NCBI GenBank assembly: GCA_026416955.1
Contig: JAOAEE010000013.1
Span: forward strand, 1-64,000
DNA from: Ignavibacteria bacterium
GTDB lineage: Bacteria > Bacteroidota > Ignavibacteria > Kapaibacteriales > UBA2268
Length of the DNA stretch: 64,000 nucleotides
Reading direction: 5' to 3'
Shown: positions 2,326-12,502 of the stretch, in pieces
Numbering within the stretch: the first letter of the stretch is position 1
How the letters are laid out: each line of letters begins with the position of its first letter
Position numbers and translations under genes: made by a program
Notes under the pieces: model-generated
Seen by the model: only the letters and a program-made list of their open reading frames with translations
Database searches by the model: none
What the model was told of the DNA's origin: nothing

Positions 2326-2568
2326 ATGTTAGTTATGTTATTAAGTGAAGTTAATAACGAAAAAGTTGTCAAAGTTGTAGCAATAGATACAGGGAATATT
2401 GCAAAACAAAGGCTATTAGCATTAGGAATACATCCAAACGATATTCTACAAGTTGTTTCGAATCCTTCTTTTGGTCCGGTATTAATCAAAAATCTTTCGA
2501 AAGACAATGCCAGAATTGCAATTGGGCGAGGTATCGCTCAAAAAATCAAAGTCGAAAACGTCAATTAA
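2326..2568 (+). CDS. feoA: FeoA-domain protein, ferrous iron transport
   Basis: This is an 80-residue SH3-like FeoA protein with a mid-domain LALGI followed by a GP-x-L-IK segment and a C-terminal ARIAIGRGIAQKI strand, all typical of FeoA. It acts in the cytosol as an accessory to the FeoB ferrous iron transporter. Its 3' end overlaps the apparent start of feoB by 62 bases in another frame, so the two are co-transcribed and possibly translationally coupled. The DtxR-family regulator downstream of feoB suggests iron-dependent control of the block. Confidence 0.9.
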   Translation: MLVMLLSEVNNEKVVKVVAIDTGNIAKQRLLALGIHPNDILQVVSNPSFGPVLIKNLSKDNARIAIGRGIAQKIKVENVN

Positions 2569-4480
2569 ATCGATTGCATTAGTTGGACAACCTAACAGCG
2601 GAAAAAGCACACTTTTCAATGCACTTTCTGATGTTAAAGTTTCCACAGCTAACTTTGCTGGAACAACTGTTGAATATAAGGAAACAGTTATTAATTTATT
2701 TGGTTCTGATGTCCACATTATCGACCTTCCGGGCATTTATTCATTAAATCCCTCTGAACCAGCAGAATTTGTCACACTAAATTACCTTTTAGACAACTCA
2801 ATCGATTTAATAATAAATGTAATCGATTCGACATTTATTACCCGAAGTTTAGAGTTAACAATTGAGTTGACCGAATTAGGGATACCAATGTTAATCGCAT
2901 TAAATATGACTGATGAGGCCCAAAAAAAAGGAATTGATATTAACACAGAAGAACTTGAACGCCTTTTAAATGTTCCAACGGTAAAAATTTCTGCTCTTTA
3001 TCGAAAAGGTATAACAGAACTTTTAGAAAAAATAGAAACTCAACTTTTTATTTCACCAAAAACACCAACGCAACAAAAATTCACTTTTCACATAGAGCAA
3101 GTTTTGAACAGAATAAAGGAAAGTTTCGAAATTGCTTCCCAAAACCATATTGACAAAAGGTTTTACACTATAAAAGTTTTAGAAAATCCCTCTTTAATAA
3201 AAAATAAACTTGAAATAACAAATTCTAACAAAATAAAATTGGCAATTGATGAGATTATTTCTCAGCATCAAATACCCGCTTACGAAATATTTGAGTCTGA
3301 GAGGCACCATCGAAGTATGGAAATAAGCCACAAAGTAACAATTTATGCTCATTCCTCCAAACTTACATTTATCGATAAGTTAGACCTACTTTTCTTGAAG
3401 CCTTTTTCTGGTTACTTTTTTGCAATTTTTTTCTTTGCAACTTATTTTTTCCTAATCTTTTCTGCTGGTGGTTGGATAGGTAGTCTTTTTGAGCAACCTT
3501 TAAGTGAATTATCAAAATTATTTGAACCCCTTAAAGATAAAACTCTTTTGGGTTGGTTCATTGTCGATGGTATTTATCAAGGGATTTCGGGGGCTATTGG
3601 GATTGTTCTCCCCTACTTTCTTCCACTATTGTTTCTAACATCAATATTAGAAGAAACTGGTTATATGGCGAGAATTGCATATTTGATGGACACTATTTTC
3701 CATCGTATAGGCTTACACGGAAAATCGGTAGCATCTTTTGTTATGGGTTTTGGCTGTACTGTACCAGCAGTTTATGCTACCCGAATTATTGAAAGCAAAA
3801 GAGACAGACTTCTTGCATCGGTTCTAATTAACTTCATCCCTTGCTCAGCAAGGTTGACAGTAATTTTTGCTCTTACAACTGCATTAACCGGACCGCTTTG
3901 GACTATTGTTATTTTTTTGTATATTCTTATTGCTATTGCCGTTACATCGAAAATTCTTTCCACATTTTTACCAAAACCCATTGGTTTAATTATGGAGATT
4001 CCCCCTCTGAGACTTCCCTCCTTTAAAATAATATTAAAAAAAACGTATTATAAGATATTGGAATTCTTTAAGGTTGCTTTTCCATTTCTGGTTTTGGGTA
4101 GTCTTGCACTTTCTATTCTGGACTATTTTAATTTCACGAAAACAATGAATTCTTTGTTTGAACCTTTTATTTCGAACATTCTTGGATTACCCAAAGAGCT
4201 TGGAACCCCCTTGGTATTTGGTTTTCTTCGGAAAGAACTTGCTGTATTTATGACTTCCCAAGCATTTGGGGTCAACAACCTTAGCAACATTCCACTTACT
4301 ATCCCACAAGTTGTTTCTTTTTTAATATTTATAGTCTTTTATTTGCCTTGTGTTTCAACTTCTGCAGTTTTCTGGAAAGAATTTGGATGGAAACATTTAC
4401 TAACAACTGTTGTTCTTGGTTTTTTACTTTCAACCATCTCTGCTCTCTTTTTTAGGATTACTTTAACAACAATTTTTTAA
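2507..4480 (+). CDS. feoB: FeoB ferrous iron transporter
   Basis: This 657-residue inner-membrane Fe(II) transporter has an N-terminal G domain: G1 (GQPNSGKS, residues 27-34), G3 (DLPG near 73) and G4 (NMTD near 132). A helical linker follows, then the polytopic transport region with the conserved GxGC segment (VMGFGCTVPA) and an FLRKE segment. It is shorter than the Escherichia coli protein (about 770 residues) but within the range of the family. The ATG at 2507 lies inside feoA. Without it, only TTG codons a few residues downstream are available before the P-loop, so the overlap seems genuine. A DtxR-type regulator lies 91 bases downstream. Confidence 0.93.
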   Translation: MPELQLGEVSLKKSKSKTSIKSIALVGQPNSGKSTLFNALSDVKVSTANFAGTTVEYKETVINLFGSDVHIIDLPGIYSLNPSEPAEFVTLNYLLDNSIDLIINVIDSTFITRSLELTIELTELGIPMLIALNMTDEAQKKGIDINTEELERLLNVPTVKISALYRKGITELLEKIETQLFISPKTPTQQKFTFHIEQVLNRIKESFEIASQNHIDKRFYTIKVLENPSLIKNKLEITNSNKIKLAIDEIISQHQIPAYEIFESERHHRSMEISHKVTIYAHSSKLTFIDKLDLLFLKPFSGYFFAIFFFATYFFLIFSAGGWIGSLFEQPLSELSKLFEPLKDKTLLGWFIVDGIYQGISGAIGIVLPYFLPLLFLTSILEETGYMARIAYLMDTIFHRIGLHGKSVASFVMGFGCTVPAVYATRIIESKRDRLLASVLINFIPCSARLTVIFALTTALTGPLWTIVIFLYILIAIAVTSKILSTFLPKPIGLIMEIPPLRLPSFKIILKKTYYKILEFFKVAFPFLVLGSLALSILDYFNFTKTMNSLFEPFISNILGLPKELGTPLVFGFLRKELAVFMTSQAFGVNNLSNIPLTIPQVVSFLIFIVFYLPCVSTSAVFWKEFGWKHLLTTVVLGFLLSTISALFFRITLTTIF

Positions 4481-4571
4481 TATTAAAAAAATTTTTTTTG
4501 ACTATAATTTTATTTTTTTTAATTTAATTTTTTATTAATATTTATTTTGTAAAACTTATTTGGAAATAACT

Positions 4572-5231
4572 ATGCTTAGTCAAGCAGTTCAAGATTATTT
4601 AAAAGCAATTTATAAACTACAAGGCAATAAACCCGTTTCTACAACTGAACTTGCAAAAGAATTAAATGTTTCGGGCGCATCTGTAACTGGAATGCTTAAG
4701 CGTCTGTCTACAATGGGTTTAGTAAGTTACAATTCTTACCACGGAGCAAAATTGACCCCTGCTGGCGAAAAAGTTGCACTCGAAACCATACGATTCCATC
4801 GCTTATTGGAATTATATCTTAAAGAAAAGCTGAATTATCCACTCGACAAGGTCCACGAAGAAGCTTGTCGATTGGAACATTTCATATCCGAGGAATTTAT
4901 CGAAAGGGTTAATCAAATTCTTGGTGACCCAAAATTCGACCCACACGGACATCCAATTCCCACTAAGGAAGGTAAAATCGAGTCATTCGATGAACTGCCA
5001 CTAAGCGAAGCTGAAATTGGAAAAAATTACACCATCAGTCATCTTGATGATGATAATCCCGAACTTCTCGGTTACTTAGAAAGCTTAGGAATTTTGCCCG
5101 ACACTAAAATTGAACTTATCGAAAAATCACCATTTTATGGACCCATTTCGCTTAAGCTTCTCAAATCTCAAAAAATACATACAATTGGTTACGAAGTAGC
5201 AAAAAGAATTTTCCTAAGAAATACAAATTAA
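4572..5231 (+). CDS. DtxR/IdeR-family metal-dependent transcriptional regulator
   Basis: This is a 219-residue three-domain regulator. It has an N-terminal winged helix (ATTELAKELNVS region), a dimerisation and metal-binding domain with the RFHRLLE, VHEEACRLEH and FDPHGHPIPT signatures, and a C-terminal SH3/FeoA-like domain (LGILPDTKIELIEKSPFYGP region). Such proteins bind Fe(II) or Mn(II) and repress uptake genes when metal is plentiful. Sitting directly after feoA and feoB, it most likely controls them, although no clear 19-base DtxR box is visible upstream. I chose the ATG at 4572 because the upstream in-frame start is only a TTG at 4560, and the family typically begins near SQAVQDYLK. Confidence 0.9.
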   Translation: MLSQAVQDYLKAIYKLQGNKPVSTTELAKELNVSGASVTGMLKRLSTMGLVSYNSYHGAKLTPAGEKVALETIRFHRLLELYLKEKLNYPLDKVHEEACRLEHFISEEFIERVNQILGDPKFDPHGHPIPTKEGKIESFDELPLSEAEIGKNYTISHLDDDNPELLGYLESLGILPDTKIELIEKSPFYGPISLKLLKSQKIHTIGYEVAKRIFLRNTN

Positions 5232-7622: not shown

Positions 7623-7695
7623 GCCAACATAGCTCAGCTGGTAGAGCAGCTCACTCGTAATGAGCAGGCCGGCGGTTCGAATCCGCCTGTTGGCT
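7623..7695 (+). tRNA. tRNA-Thr, anticodon CGT
   Basis: The cloverleaf folds cleanly. The acceptor stem is GCCAACA with TGTTGGC, the D arm begins GCTC and ends GAGC, the anticodon stem is GCTCA/TGAGC with loop CTCGTAA, and the T arm is GGCGG-TTCGAAT-CCGCC. Anticodon CGT reads ACG (Thr). The discriminator is T and the CCA is not encoded. The gene lies 45 bases after the glycosyltransferase gene. Its last base touches the stop codon of the opposite-strand porin gene. Confidence 0.96.
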
Positions 7696-8892
7696 CTAAT
7701 AGTATAAATGTAATTGAAATGCCCAACGAGTACTTTTGCTTTCCATAGACTTAAAATATCTATACTCTCCAACAAATTCTAAGTATGGAATTGGAAAATA
7801 TCGTACTCCCAAGACTATGGAATTATTCGATAACTTCCATACATTTTCGCTTGTTATTGTCAAACTTGTTGAAGCATTCTCGTACATCAGAAATGGAAGA
7901 ACACCACGGGAAGCAAAGTAAATTAGTTTAACAGAGAAATTGTTTGTTCTTCTAAGTTCTTTTAGAGAAGAAAAAGCATACTCATAAAAAAGTCCAATTG
8001 TTTCAAAAAAATTGATGCCAATGAAACTACTCGAATACAAAAAATTACCATTCACTAAAACAGAAGTTCCAAGAAAACTATAAGTTAATACATCATTGAT
8101 AACATTTGGATAGAAAACAAATTTTGAATTAAATGTAGGATTGTGTTTCAATACAATTGGTCTATCACCAAATATTGTAACTTGAGAAAGGAAACGAGAG
8201 TCGAAAATCCCAATGAAAAAATCAAAATAATCAAATTTTCTGTAAGAAAGTTCTATACCAAATTCAGAGTAATCTGGTGGAAAAAGGCTGGATGAATAAT
8301 CGACCGATGCAATTCTCCTATCAAAACGAGTCATATCGCAATCACGAATTCCAAAAGAAGGTTGGAACTTACCTAATTGAATCTCGGGAAGGAAATCTAA
8401 TATTTTTATGTTTGCAGAGGCTGTCCAATTGTCTTGACCTTGAAAAACTAAACTTCCAAGATTGTATTGACCATTAAAATTGATAAATTCATTGGGTTTA
8501 AGAAGTACATATATCGCAGCTTCCATAGGAAAAAATTTTCTCTTTGCCAACTCGGTTCGATGCGAACGAACAGACTGGAATCTAAAATCAAATCCATAAG
8601 AAAAACCTAATGAATCCTTCCCTTCTTGCTCAAAGCTCAACTTACTCCAATACTGTTCTTTGTCAAATAGTTCGTAAATCTTTTTGATTTCATCCTTACC
8701 TATAGGGAATTGAGAGGCGTCTCTTAGATATTTCCATCCAAATTCAGTTCGAATACCCCCACCCTGAGGGTTAATATGGCACTTAGAGCATTTATTTCCG
8801 GACCAAATAGAAAGTTCTGGTGTAGTATGGCAATAATTTTTGATTAGAAAAAAAATAACTATTGTAACAAATAAATATTTCATATTAATCAT
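7696..8892 (-). CDS. outer-membrane beta-barrel with an N-terminal single c-type heme motif
   Basis: This 398-residue protein starts with a signal peptide, then a single heme-attachment motif (CSKCH, residues 35-39) followed by NPQGGGIRTEFGWKY. The remainder consists of alternating amphipathic strands and ends in a Leu-His-Leu-Tyr-Tyr C-terminus, as outer-membrane barrels do. The architecture recalls Cyc2-type cytochrome-porin fusions, which carry one heme at the mouth of a barrel, but the motif context differs and I do not claim homology. Its start overlaps the stop of the upstream cytochrome gene as ATGA, so the two are translationally coupled. A role in moving electrons across the outer membrane is inference. 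An alternative is a barrel whose heme domain has another redox or sensing role. Confidence 0.7.
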   Translation of the reverse strand: MINMKYLFVTIVIFFLIKNYCHTTPELSIWSGNKCSKCHINPQGGGIRTEFGWKYLRDASQFPIGKDEIKKIYELFDKEQYWSKLSFEQEGKDSLGFSYGFDFRFQSVRSHRTELAKRKFFPMEAAIYVLLKPNEFINFNGQYNLGSLVFQGQDNWTASANIKILDFLPEIQLGKFQPSFGIRDCDMTRFDRRIASVDYSSSLFPPDYSEFGIELSYRKFDYFDFFIGIFDSRFLSQVTIFGDRPIVLKHNPTFNSKFVFYPNVINDVLTYSFLGTSVLVNGNFLYSSSFIGINFFETIGLFYEYAFSSLKELRRTNNFSVKLIYFASRGVLPFLMYENASTSLTITSENVWKLSNNSIVLGVRYFPIPYLEFVGEYRYFKSMESKSTRWAFQLHLYY

Positions 8893-9395
8893 TTATGTGG
8901 TGGTAACTTCCCTAATTTTCGTGCTCTAACAACATCTTCAGCAGTAACTTTCATATCGATACCATTTAATTCCCTATAAACATATTCCAAAATCATAGCA
9001 ATTTCATCATCTTTTAAATTTTTATCGACCTCTGTTGTCATTACTCCGTAATATACTTCCCCATTGACAATAATTTTCCCACTCCTACCAAAAAGCATAC
9101 CCCTCAATAATTCAATTTTATCCCCATTTTGAACATAATCGGAGTTCTTCAATGGTGGATAAACTCCCTTAATTCCCCGACCATCCTTACGATGGCATTT
9201 TGAACATTGTTCAACATATAATTTTTTCGCTTTTTCTTTATCATAGGAAAAGGAAACATAAAGAGAAACAGTGAAACAAAAAACCACTAAGACAAGAACA
9301 ACTAGAAAAAATCTATTTTGCTGCAATTTATTCAACAAAAGTTGATTTTCGATATTTTTTGAATATCTTTTTTGCATCTTTTTCTGCTTCTTCAT
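8889..9395 (-). CDS. membrane-anchored monoheme cytochrome c
   Basis: This 168-residue protein has one N-terminal transmembrane anchor (about residues 29-50) and a periplasmic class I cytochrome c domain. The heme motif is CSKCH (64-68), followed by DGRG and YPPL segments as in small electron-carrying cytochromes. A Met near residue 119 (GVMT) is the likely axial ligand. The C-terminal helix (DDEIAMILEYVY) fits the fold. The ATG at 9395 lies inside the upstream lipoprotein gene; a second ATG at 9377 would shorten the N-terminus by six residues. It is coupled by an ATGA overlap to the heme barrel downstream, which suggests that the two exchange electrons. Confidence 0.88.
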   Translation of the reverse strand: MKKQKKMQKRYSKNIENQLLLNKLQQNRFFLVVLVLVVFCFTVSLYVSFSYDKEKAKKLYVEQCSKCHRKDGRGIKGVYPPLKNSDYVQNGDKIELLRGMLFGRSGKIIVNGEVYYGVMTTEVDKNLKDDEIAMILEYVYRELNGIDMKVTAEDVVRARKLGKLPPHK

Positions 9396-11181
9396 ATTTT
9401 GAATAACCCCACAGAACTACTTTATACATTATTCCACTGTTTGATAAAAATCTATCGTAATATGCTCTGAATCCTTGTTTTTCCCAAAAGAGAACTTTCT
9501 TTTCTGCCAAATCTTCACTCAATGTAGTATCCACAACTATAGTAAAAGGTAGCACTTCTGGAATAAGCCATCGAATTTCAACCCTTCTGTTAAACAAGCC
9601 AGAAAATTCATCATCTTCAACTGGAAACAATGGTTTGCTAATACCAATACCTTTTGTTCTAATTTGCGAAGGGAAAACACCTCGTTCAATTAATCTATTT
9701 TTTACCGCTAATGCTCTTTCAAGAGATAGTTTTATTGGGTCTGAATATTGTTCCCCAATACCAGCAGTTCCAATCAATTCGACAACTAGATTTCTATGGT
9801 TAACCATCAAATTTGCAAGGTTATCGATGCACGGAAGAAAATTCTCGGATAAAGTAGTGTCGGCAAATTTGAATAGCGAGACTGCCTGGTAATTTGTGTA
9901 GAAATTCCTATCCTTGATTGGCAATAAATAAGAGTCAGAAAATGCAAGTTGCCCTGAACGAACAAATAATTTCAGATTTAAATCATTGCATTCGAAAGCT
10001 TTCCTTTCAATTGGAAAATTCGACTTGAAATAGTATTTGTTCGACAAAATTATTTCTGTTAACCCAAATGCAATATCATCGACTTGCCAAGGAAAATGTA
10101 CACTAGTTCCACCAGTTTTAGAGGATATATAATAGTAAGTTGAAGGCGAAACCTCGTTGCCGTAAGCAATAGTATTTATAGAAATTCCTTTTTTCAAAGC
10201 CAAGTCAATAATATCTTCTAATGTATAATTAATCGAGGAATTATCCATCTTATTTGTAATCAGAACAATAACAGATTTTGAATTTTCTTCAATTTCATTG
10301 ATTAAGTTCCATAAAGAGCGATAAATAGAACTTAATTCTATTCTTTTAGGAAATTCAAAAGTCTCTAAATCCCAGCCAAACTTGTCTGCCATTTCCAATG
10401 GAATAACATTATCCACTTTAACACCAAAAAGATACAATGCAACTTTATCGGAAACTTCAAGAAATCTAACCGCTCGTTGTATTTGCTGTTTTAACTTTGG
10501 GTTTTCATTAATAATTGAATAATCTACGAGAACAAAAAAATTCAATTTCTTTTCTATTGTTAATTCGGTTGGAAATCTCTGGGTTAAAGTAGAACTAATT
10601 TTATTGGGGCATTTTTGTTCTAATTCTACTTTCAAGTCGGTTGGGAATTTAGATACATCGTACAAAAGATTACCGAAACGGTCAAGTAAACCAAAACTGA
10701 CCTCGATACTATCTCTAAATTTGCTTGGTTTTACTCGAAAAATTCTAAGATAATTTACATTCGAAATGGAGCCCGTTGTAAATCCCAAAAAAAATTTGGA
10801 TATTGTTGAATTTTTTTCTTCAAAAATGTTTTCGATGACTTTTGGACCTCGCTGAACAGTTTGTTTTTGTTCCGACTTATTATCAAAAGTTGGATTTACA
10901 AGAATGTAAACCGATTGGAGTAGTTGTGCATTTTCTTCTCCAAATGCAACAACATCCAACCTTAAAGGATTTCGGGGCTTAACCAAAATTGAATCACTAG
11001 GTGAAAAAATCTGTTCATAACCGCTTACTTTCACATATTTCGCATTTTGGAAATCCCAGTAAACCCAAGCACTATCGCCAGCGTTAATTTCAATTAAATC
11101 AGAAATTCTTTTGACAAAGATTTTATTAGATGTACAAGATAAAAGTAAAATAAAAATAAATAAAGTAGAAAACACTCTCAT
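9328..11181 (-). CDS. lipoprotein with VWA-like, OmpA and SPOR-like domains
   Basis: This 617-residue protein has a signal peptide ending in a lipobox (LLSC, Cys at 16). A beta-rich region is followed by a VWA-like domain (about 215-385) whose MIDAS is degenerate (DYSII). Next come an OmpA/Pal-like peptidoglycan-binding domain (about 445-540; RALAVKNRL, FNRRVEI) and a SPOR-like C-terminal domain (about 550-617). This suggests an outer-membrane lipoprotein gripping peptidoglycan. The ATG at 11181 leaves one base after the ClpB-like stop; an earlier in-frame start at 11223 would destroy the signal peptide. The end overlaps the cytochrome gene by 68 bases. It could scaffold the heme proteins encoded with it, which is inference. 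Confidence 0.75.
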   Translation of the reverse strand: MRVFSTLFIFILLLSCTSNKIFVKRISDLIEINAGDSAWVYWDFQNAKYVKVSGYEQIFSPSDSILVKPRNPLRLDVVAFGEENAQLLQSVYILVNPTFDNKSEQKQTVQRGPKVIENIFEEKNSTISKFFLGFTTGSISNVNYLRIFRVKPSKFRDSIEVSFGLLDRFGNLLYDVSKFPTDLKVELEQKCPNKISSTLTQRFPTELTIEKKLNFFVLVDYSIINENPKLKQQIQRAVRFLEVSDKVALYLFGVKVDNVIPLEMADKFGWDLETFEFPKRIELSSIYRSLWNLINEIEENSKSVIVLITNKMDNSSINYTLEDIIDLALKKGISINTIAYGNEVSPSTYYYISSKTGGTSVHFPWQVDDIAFGLTEIILSNKYYFKSNFPIERKAFECNDLNLKLFVRSGQLAFSDSYLLPIKDRNFYTNYQAVSLFKFADTTLSENFLPCIDNLANLMVNHRNLVVELIGTAGIGEQYSDPIKLSLERALAVKNRLIERGVFPSQIRTKGIGISKPLFPVEDDEFSGLFNRRVEIRWLIPEVLPFTIVVDTTLSEDLAEKKVLFWEKQGFRAYYDRFLSNSGIMYKVVLWGYSKYEEAEKDAKKIFKKYRKSTFVE

Positions 11182-11182
11182 A

Positions 11183-12502
11183 TTATATCTTCGAAAATAT
11201 AAATTCACCATCTTTTGCATCAATCAATACTTTATCCCCTTGTGAAAATTTTCGTTCTAAAATTAAAAGAGCTAATTTGTCAACGATAAGTTTCTGAATT
11301 GCTCTTTTCAAAGGTCTTGCGCCAAATTGTGGGTCGAAACCAATCGCAGAAATTAAGTCCAATGCATCGTTAGTAATTTGAATATCAATCCCATTTTCTT
11401 TTAACTTTCCCTTAATCTTTTCAATTTGGAGCAAAGCAATTTTGACAATTTCATTTTTGGTTAATGGTTTAAAAACAATAATATCATCTATCCTATTTAA
11501 AAATTCTGGACGAAGTCTTTTCTTAAGTAATTCAAAAATTTCATCCTTAAGTCTCTCCATTACTTCTTCTCTGTTCGAAGAGGTCATATATTCTAATCTT
11601 TCTTGGATTAACTCAGTTCCAAGATTAGAAGTCATAATAACAATAGTATTTTTAAAATTAACAACTCTACCTTTACTGTCCGTTAATCGACCATCATCGA
11701 GGACTTGCAACAAAATATTAAATACATCTGGGTGTGCCTTTTCTATCTCGTCCAATAAAACAACAGAATAGGGACGCCTTCGAACGGCCTCTGTAAGTTG
11801 ACCACCTTCCTCATAACCAACATAACCCGGGGGTGCACCAACCAATCTGGAAACAGAAAAACGTTCCATATACTCACTCATATCAATCCGGACCATTGCA
11901 TTTTCATCGTCGAACAAAAATTCTGCAAGAGACCTTGCCAATTCAGTTTTTCCAACTCCCGTACTACCAAGAAAAATAAAAGAACCTATTGGTCTATTAA
12001 CATCTTGTAGACCAACTCGAGAGCGACGAATTGCGTTTGCAACTGCTCTTACGGCTTCCTCCTGGTCTACAAGGCGTAAATGTATTCTTTCTTCCATTTT
12101 CAGCAACTTAGAACGTTCACTTTCAAGCATTTTGTTGACTGGAATACCAGTCCATTTCGAAACAATTTCTGCTATGTCCTCTGCATCAACTTCCTCTTTC
12201 AATAACTTTCCGCTTTTCTGAATTTCTTCAAGTTTTGAACTTGCCTCGTTCAACTTCTTTTGTAATTCGTGTATCAAACCATAGCGAATTTCGGCAACCT
12301 TGGCAAGATTGCCTTGTCTTTCATATTCATCAGCTTGATACCGAAGATTCTCAATTTGAGCTTTGTAGTCGCGAATTTGTTGAATTATGCTTTTTTCCAA
12401 TTCCCATTGTGCTCGGAGTTTTTCTCTCGCTTTTCTTAATTCATCCAATTCTTTTTCGATTTCCAGAAGTCGCTCCTTTGTTGCTTTGATTGAATCATCC
12501 AT
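11183..12502 (-). CDS. ClpB-like AAA+ protein lacking the N-domain and first AAA+ domain
   Basis: This 439-residue protein matches only the second half of ClpB. It begins inside the coiled-coil middle domain (about residues 1-105) and continues through the second AAA+ domain: Walker A GSTGVGKT (179-186), pore loop GYVGYEEGG, Walker B VVLLDEIE, sensor TSNLG and the FGARPLKR C-terminal motif. Full ClpB is about 860 residues. An in-frame stop lies two codons upstream of the ATG and the 150 bases upstream are non-coding, so this is not a recent in-frame truncation or assembly break. All catalytic motifs of AAA2 are intact, so it may be a working single-ring unfoldase. It leads the operon that encodes the OmpA-like lipoprotein and two heme proteins. 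Confidence 0.85.
   Translation of the reverse strand: MDDSIKATKERLLEIEKELDELRKAREKLRAQWELEKSIIQQIRDYKAQIENLRYQADEYERQGNLAKVAEIRYGLIHELQKKLNEASSKLEEIQKSGKLLKEEVDAEDIAEIVSKWTGIPVNKMLESERSKLLKMEERIHLRLVDQEEAVRAVANAIRRSRVGLQDVNRPIGSFIFLGSTGVGKTELARSLAEFLFDDENAMVRIDMSEYMERFSVSRLVGAPPGYVGYEEGGQLTEAVRRRPYSVVLLDEIEKAHPDVFNILLQVLDDGRLTDSKGRVVNFKNTIVIMTSNLGTELIQERLEYMTSSNREEVMERLKDEIFELLKKRLRPEFLNRIDDIIVFKPLTKNEIVKIALLQIEKIKGKLKENGIDIQITNDALDLISAIGFDPQFGARPLKRAIQKLIVDKLALLILERKFSQGDKVLIDAKDGEFIFSKI

Follow-up and report, generated by a model that had tools for sequence, protein, structure and literature searches.

A predicted single-heme outer-membrane cytochrome-porin of Kapaibacteriales, likely from a sister family of Cyc2

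Does an outer-membrane protein of the Kapaibacteriales with one heme site and a porin-like barrel belong to Cyc2, the fused cytochrome-porin that acts as Fe(II) oxidase (PMC8406198), or to another family? An earlier note on the DNA stretch in question (64,000 nucleotides, hereafter the window) had suggested a separate family of heme porins. Our results support that suggestion, which neither the comparison of profiles with Cyc2 nor the predicted barrel contradicted. We consider it fairly likely that the protein represents a family of single-heme outer-membrane cytochrome-porins that is sister to Cyc2 and not part of it, and the family probably passes electrons across the outer membrane as Cyc2 does. 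Single-heme cytochrome-porins are already known (Cyc2, Cyc572), and what is new here is the family, its heme loop and its partners. Open-access literature on electron transfer in Kapabacteria and on fused heme porins (most subscription papers lie outside it) did not describe the family, Pfam and NCBIfam gave no match for the window protein at E<=1, and a sequence search of the PDB returned chance matches only. We rate the family as new because it is without a description in that literature and without a Pfam or NCBIfam model, and because its heme loop and partners differ. The features of the locus are the following.

7696-8892 (stop codon 7696-7698), minus strand: single-heme cytochrome-porin gene, 398 aa; open reading frame with ATG start, family in related genomes, AlphaFold2 barrel
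8827-8892, minus strand: putative signal peptide, residues 1 to about 22; Lys and a hydrophobic stretch, model helix 4-16, cleavage before TPEL by reading
8776-8790, minus strand: heme c motif CSKCH, residues 35-39; Cys/Cys/His invariant in 46/46 Kapabacteria-type rows and in all 16 others
8728-8772, minus strand: NPQGGGIRTEFGWKY loop, residues 41-55; G44, R48 and G52 invariant, likeness to the Temptin_C-type heme loop
7702-8610, minus strand: predicted 16-stranded barrel, residues 95-397; AlphaFold2 pLDDT 81, pTM 0.81, OprP/OprO Z 24.4-23.6
7708-7710, minus strand: His395 on the last strand, lumen side, at the predicted periplasmic mouth; candidate distal heme ligand by conservation and strand parity
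8889-9395, minus strand: cytochrome c of 168 aa with one heme site, by reading membrane-anchored at its N-terminus; Pfam PF00034 E=1.1e-8
9328-11223, minus strand: protein with an OmpA domain, encoded upstream of the cytochrome c gene and of uncertain start; PF00691 E=6.8e-9

CSKCH is the sole CXXCH of the window protein, and translation of the reading frame confirmed the earlier reading of the site and of the segment that follows it (NPQGGGIRTEFGWKY, residues 41-55). C35, C38, H39, G44, R48 and G52 are invariant in all 46 aligned relatives, with identities down to 26%, as are D102, R104, M123, G174, R378, Q393 and H395 (the 16 other rows with an invariant CXXCH are paralogous, Ignavibacteria-type and gammaproteobacterial). 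Judged on sequence, the pattern is far beyond chance, because these first six residues never vary among the relatives and 80 of the 100 related genomes, from Kapaibacteriales and kin, have a homologue; attachment of heme c to the protein is predicted. By profile, members were also detected in 78 of 395 genomes sampled from the phylum, the great majority of them in the window's own class. In named records, scanned with an 11-row alignment, the family occurs in Candidatus Kapaibacterium, Ignavibacteria-type bins, Latescibacterota, a Chromatiales bin and Microbulbifer rhizosphaerae, the nearest relative being that of Candidatus Kapaibacterium isolate Ch6 (CP058732.1, 68% identity). The Microbulbifer member does not suggest an iron oxidiser, because the genus is generally one of aerobic heterotrophs. 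The paralogue group, which includes a second copy in the window's genome, and a group of about 370 aa from Ignavibacteria-type genomes both matched the window group in hhalign at 100%, and two gammaproteobacterial proteins did so at 99.3%. We treat the Kapabacteria-type, paralogous, Ignavibacteria-type and gammaproteobacterial groups as one family because heme segment and barrel align.

Structure prediction, named in the earlier note as a check, returned a barrel of 16 strands (AlphaFold2, with the 46-row alignment as input). The barrel of about 340 residues with an aromatic end that had been proposed thus holds as to fold but not as to length, as it covers about 300 residues (95-397); the C-terminus reads RWAFQLHLYY. 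The best structural matches were the phosphate porins OprP (2O4V, Z 24.4) and OprO (4RJX, Z 24.1; 4RJW, Z 23.6), which share the fold over 288-291 residues but have 13% identity to the window protein and carry no heme, and the first fifty Foldseek matches were all porins. In the model the heme segment (residues 25-76) is mostly helical and separate from the barrel, and confidence there is low (pLDDT about 44-66 over residues 21-60). When the faces of the strands were assigned by hydrophobicity, 22 of the 89 lumen-facing positions proved conserved, against 3 of the 92 that face lipid (p=4e-7, Mann-Whitney test), and the conserved lumen is polar, including D102, R104, Q106, E214, E338, E372, E376, R378, R389, Q393 and H395. 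His395, close to the C-terminal end of the last strand on the predicted periplasmic side, is kept outside the gammaproteobacterial pair in 59 of 60 rows (50/50 Kapabacteria-type and paralogous, 9/10 Ignavibacteria-type), and we propose it as a candidate for the distal heme ligand. Met123, invariant in Kapabacteria-type and Ignavibacteria-type rows, was rejected for this role, as it faces lipid by strand parity and is replaced by Gln in the gammaproteobacterial rows.

The cytochrome c gene directly upstream, absent from the earlier note, overlaps the porin gene by ATGA (8889-8892), and its homologue adjoins the barrel gene in 8/8 named relatives of the window's clade. The order with the OmpA-domain gene is kept in the genus only (present in L060-L063, not in L064-L067), and a tRNA-Thr gene (7623-7696) is convergent with the porin gene. 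Near the locus, on the plus strand at 2326-5231, lie by reading FeoA, FeoB and a DtxR/MntR-type regulator; the order of FeoB, regulator and a glycosyltransferase is kept in L060, L062 and L063. These genes give only a hint of a link between the porin locus and iron.

Coupling to redox genes extends across the family. Within 3.5 kb on the same strand, 34 of the 51 named barrel loci have a Rieske gene and 8 more a cytochrome c gene; some members (Latescibacterota and several Ignavibacteria-type) have no recognised redox gene alongside the barrel. The Rieske partners show in alignment RR-F TAT signals followed, by reading, by a lipobox-like cysteine, and may be lipoproteins. Many Rieske operons also hold YceI (PF04264 E=4.6e-21) and a protein of about 100 aa with two hydrophobic helices. 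The latter lies between the barrel and Rieske genes (L102 2938-3261 and homologues), has the conserved motif FGTE....W...F.LGLLP and gave no Pfam match above cut-off. In the tree, all nine cytochrome c-partnered rows, that of the window among them, group in a single clade (support 100/100), and most surrounding rows have Rieske. Because of this single clade, it seems that the partner was swapped once, from Rieske to cytochrome c, with the pairing to a single-electron carrier kept.

For the sister family we propose an inward route, in which we infer the position of the plug, the electron transfer, its direction and the donor. The exported protein would form a 16-stranded OprP-like barrel, with the N-terminal segment and its one heme c as a plug at the periplasmic mouth, where His395 on the last strand would probably serve as second heme ligand. 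Fe(II), or another small and dissolved donor of single electrons, would enter the barrel from outside and give one electron to the heme. From there it would pass to a periplasmic carrier encoded by the neighbouring gene, here the membrane-anchored mono-heme cytochrome c and in most relatives the TAT-exported Rieske protein, and from the carrier to a terminal oxidase. Carriers of the class I cytochrome c and Rieske types usually have a high potential, which favours electron uptake. The window's genome encodes a heme-copper oxidase. In the related hot-spring Ca. Thermonerobacter, alternative complex III and aa3 and bd oxidases have been reported (PMC6338057).

The opposite direction has to be weighed for the paralogue of the same genome (G000:C38, 32% identity to the window protein). 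It lies in a cluster of six electron-transfer genes (L142 5289-12388) that encode a 5-heme lipoprotein with MtrC/MtrF-like domain, the barrel, a Rieske protein, a mono-heme c, a 13-heme cytochrome and a 735-aa protein in which a thiosulfate-reductase-type (quinone-type) cytochrome b is joined to an NrfH-like multiheme part. The cluster recurs in G001 (L143), and no description of it was found in the literature consulted. It looks like a complete extracellular electron route, and that copy looks able to export electrons from quinol. G012 has tandem repeats of the genes for 5-heme lipoprotein, barrel and Rieske-like protein (L144 1080-10055). If the window copy worked in the same way, electrons would run from quinol through periplasmic carriers and leave by the heme porin for a surface cytochrome or an acceptor outside the cell. 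We find this unlikely, as the window copy is adjoined only by a class I cytochrome c, a type that usually serves oxidases, there is no multiheme protein within the window, and one heme would have little reach to an insoluble acceptor.

Whether the proposed uptake family falls inside Cyc2 was addressed by motifs and profiles. Cyc2 is identified in the literature by two motifs, AXPXFAR[Q/K][T/Y], which precedes the heme site, and PXL, which lies four residues after CXXCH (PMC8406198). Both are absent. In place of the first, the window reads TTPELSIWS (TTPELSIWSGNKCSKCHINPQGGG) and the family consensus A.PQFSLLT, with FAR[QK] in none of the family rows compared, and PXL is lacking in the window (CHINPQGGGIR) and at that place in the family alignments. 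The protein shares with Cyc2 the single N-terminal CXXCH after a signal peptide (by reading) and the fused 16-stranded OprP/OprO-like barrel of a chain of at least 365 aa (398 aa here). Counted from the first heme cysteine, the family consensus and Cyc2 also have in common A (-12), P (-10), F (-8) and G (-3), and because A.P.F....G..C..CH aligns in exact register the two look like sister families and not a case of convergence. The claim that the surroundings of the heme are unlike those of Cyc2 thus applies to the motifs, but the common register means that they are not unrelated.

Cyc2-type sequences were gathered by a DNA pattern of the published motif, presumably from Chlorobiaceae and Ignavibacteria-type relatives, and heme-segment profiles were compared with signal peptides removed. 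The family matched the Cyc2-like pool at 95.8% (score 43.8) and Cyc2 alone at 92.4%, versus 97.7-99.3% for Cyc2-type groups among themselves and at most 87.8% (score 31.7) for the family against eight sets of unrelated CXXCH segments. The Kapabacteria group alone reached 85-89% against Cyc2, which is within the control level (one unrelated CXXCH segment reached 90.9%) and was set aside as stand-alone evidence of kinship; kinship to Cyc2 rests on the pooled family because only the pooled profile exceeds the controls. With barrel-only profiles the family matched Cyc2 at most at 1.9%, which is no evidence either way because two Cyc2 subgroups likewise gave no match to one another (0.8%). A structure model of Cyc2 from a 10-row alignment was poor (pLDDT 51.5). 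Taken with the missing motifs, these comparisons do not place the family inside Cyc2, the similarity found being limited to the heme segment.

By profile, the heme segment of the family resembles the heme loop of bacterial Temptin_C (PF24784) even more than that of Cyc2 (98.4%, score 70.3, 44 columns). The loops are alike, with CxNCHxxPxGGGxRNxFG in bacterial Temptin_C and a match by profile to the pattern CxxCHxxPxGGGxRNxFG on the side of the window family, and the NPxGGGxRxxFG loop, which also occurs in T9SS-tailed Temptin_C proteins, is not unique to barrels. The Temptin_C proteins differ in being secreted and without a barrel, and in Pfam the window protein did not match PF24784 at E<=1, while partner proteins of its relatives do match it. 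Temptin_C genes adjoin barrel relatives in four Ignavibacteria-type loci (L145, L146, L150, L160). Temptin_C proteins with CXXCH in the conserved loop were observed at L145 3065-3769, L146 5728-6399, L150 6188-6913, L160 5767-6438 and L154 4779-6339; those scanned have a T9SS sorting tail, and they may be secreted mono-heme cytochromes.

That the window protein is a diverged but genuine Cyc2, with Fe(II) oxidase function and a drifted motif, would fit its architecture and closest fold templates, OprP and OprO being the published structural homologues of Cyc2 (PMC8406198), as well as the exact register and a heme-segment score above that of the unrelated controls. We regard it as improbable, since both identifying motifs are absent, the heme segment is closer to Temptin_C-type proteins, and a Cyc2 profile matched nothing in the window's genome. 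Moreover, two Ignavibacteria-type genomes (G177 and G262) carry Cyc2-motif proteins and the window family as separate genes. From sequence comparison, the family is a distant relative that lies outside Cyc2 as defined, and it is unlike Cyc2 in the NPxGGGxRxxFG after the heme site, in His395 on the last strand, in its coupling to cytochrome c or Rieske genes and in barrel sequences that cannot be aligned. That it is mainly a solute porin, with the heme in a side role (gating, sensing or peroxide removal) and no through-current, is very doubtful, for although the barrel has an ordinary 16-stranded porin fold and many operons hold YceI and the small two-helix protein, which have no known link to electron conduits, two things speak against it, the paralogue's multiheme cluster and the lasting linkage to carriers of single electrons, in which one clade has cytochrome c in place of Rieske.

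Among other known systems, MtrAB/PioAB/MtoAB resemble the sister family as an outer-membrane barrel with heme and a likely electron conduit, but they have a separate decaheme subunit in a 26-stranded barrel, whereas the window protein is one polypeptide with one heme and 16 strands. Cyc572 of Leptospirillum, compared by description only, likewise fuses cytochrome and porin, with an N-terminal CXXCH and a barrel predicted to have 16 strands (PMC10654088). A third group of heme barrels was observed in L114-L122 and L130 (PAFARKYGTSCYTCHSGFPARNAFGEAF), probably in Chlorobiaceae; it has a FARK motif without PXL and is kin to Cyc2 by heme segment (97.7-98.6%). Another genome of the window's class (G251; L161, L152) has two FARK-type heme barrels amid cytochrome and Rieske genes, and also a member of the window family adjoining a TAT-signal gene.

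We put at about even the chance that a second, undescribed branch of single-heme outer-membrane electron conduits is spread widely among Kapaibacteriales and Ignavibacteria-type bacteria, with interchangeable Rieske and cytochrome c partners in the periplasm and the heme held between the CXXCH His and a last-strand His. Cyc2 is the marker by which microbial iron oxidation is inferred from sequence, and a sister family with the same build and another heme loop would escape Cyc2 motifs and profiles. Through it, outer-membrane electron exchange would be known from further lineages, of which scarcely any members are in culture. With the conserved lumen and His395, the heme arrangement of cytochrome-porins can be put to the test, and the swap from Rieske to cytochrome c offers a natural comparison of how electrons are handed over from such a conduit.
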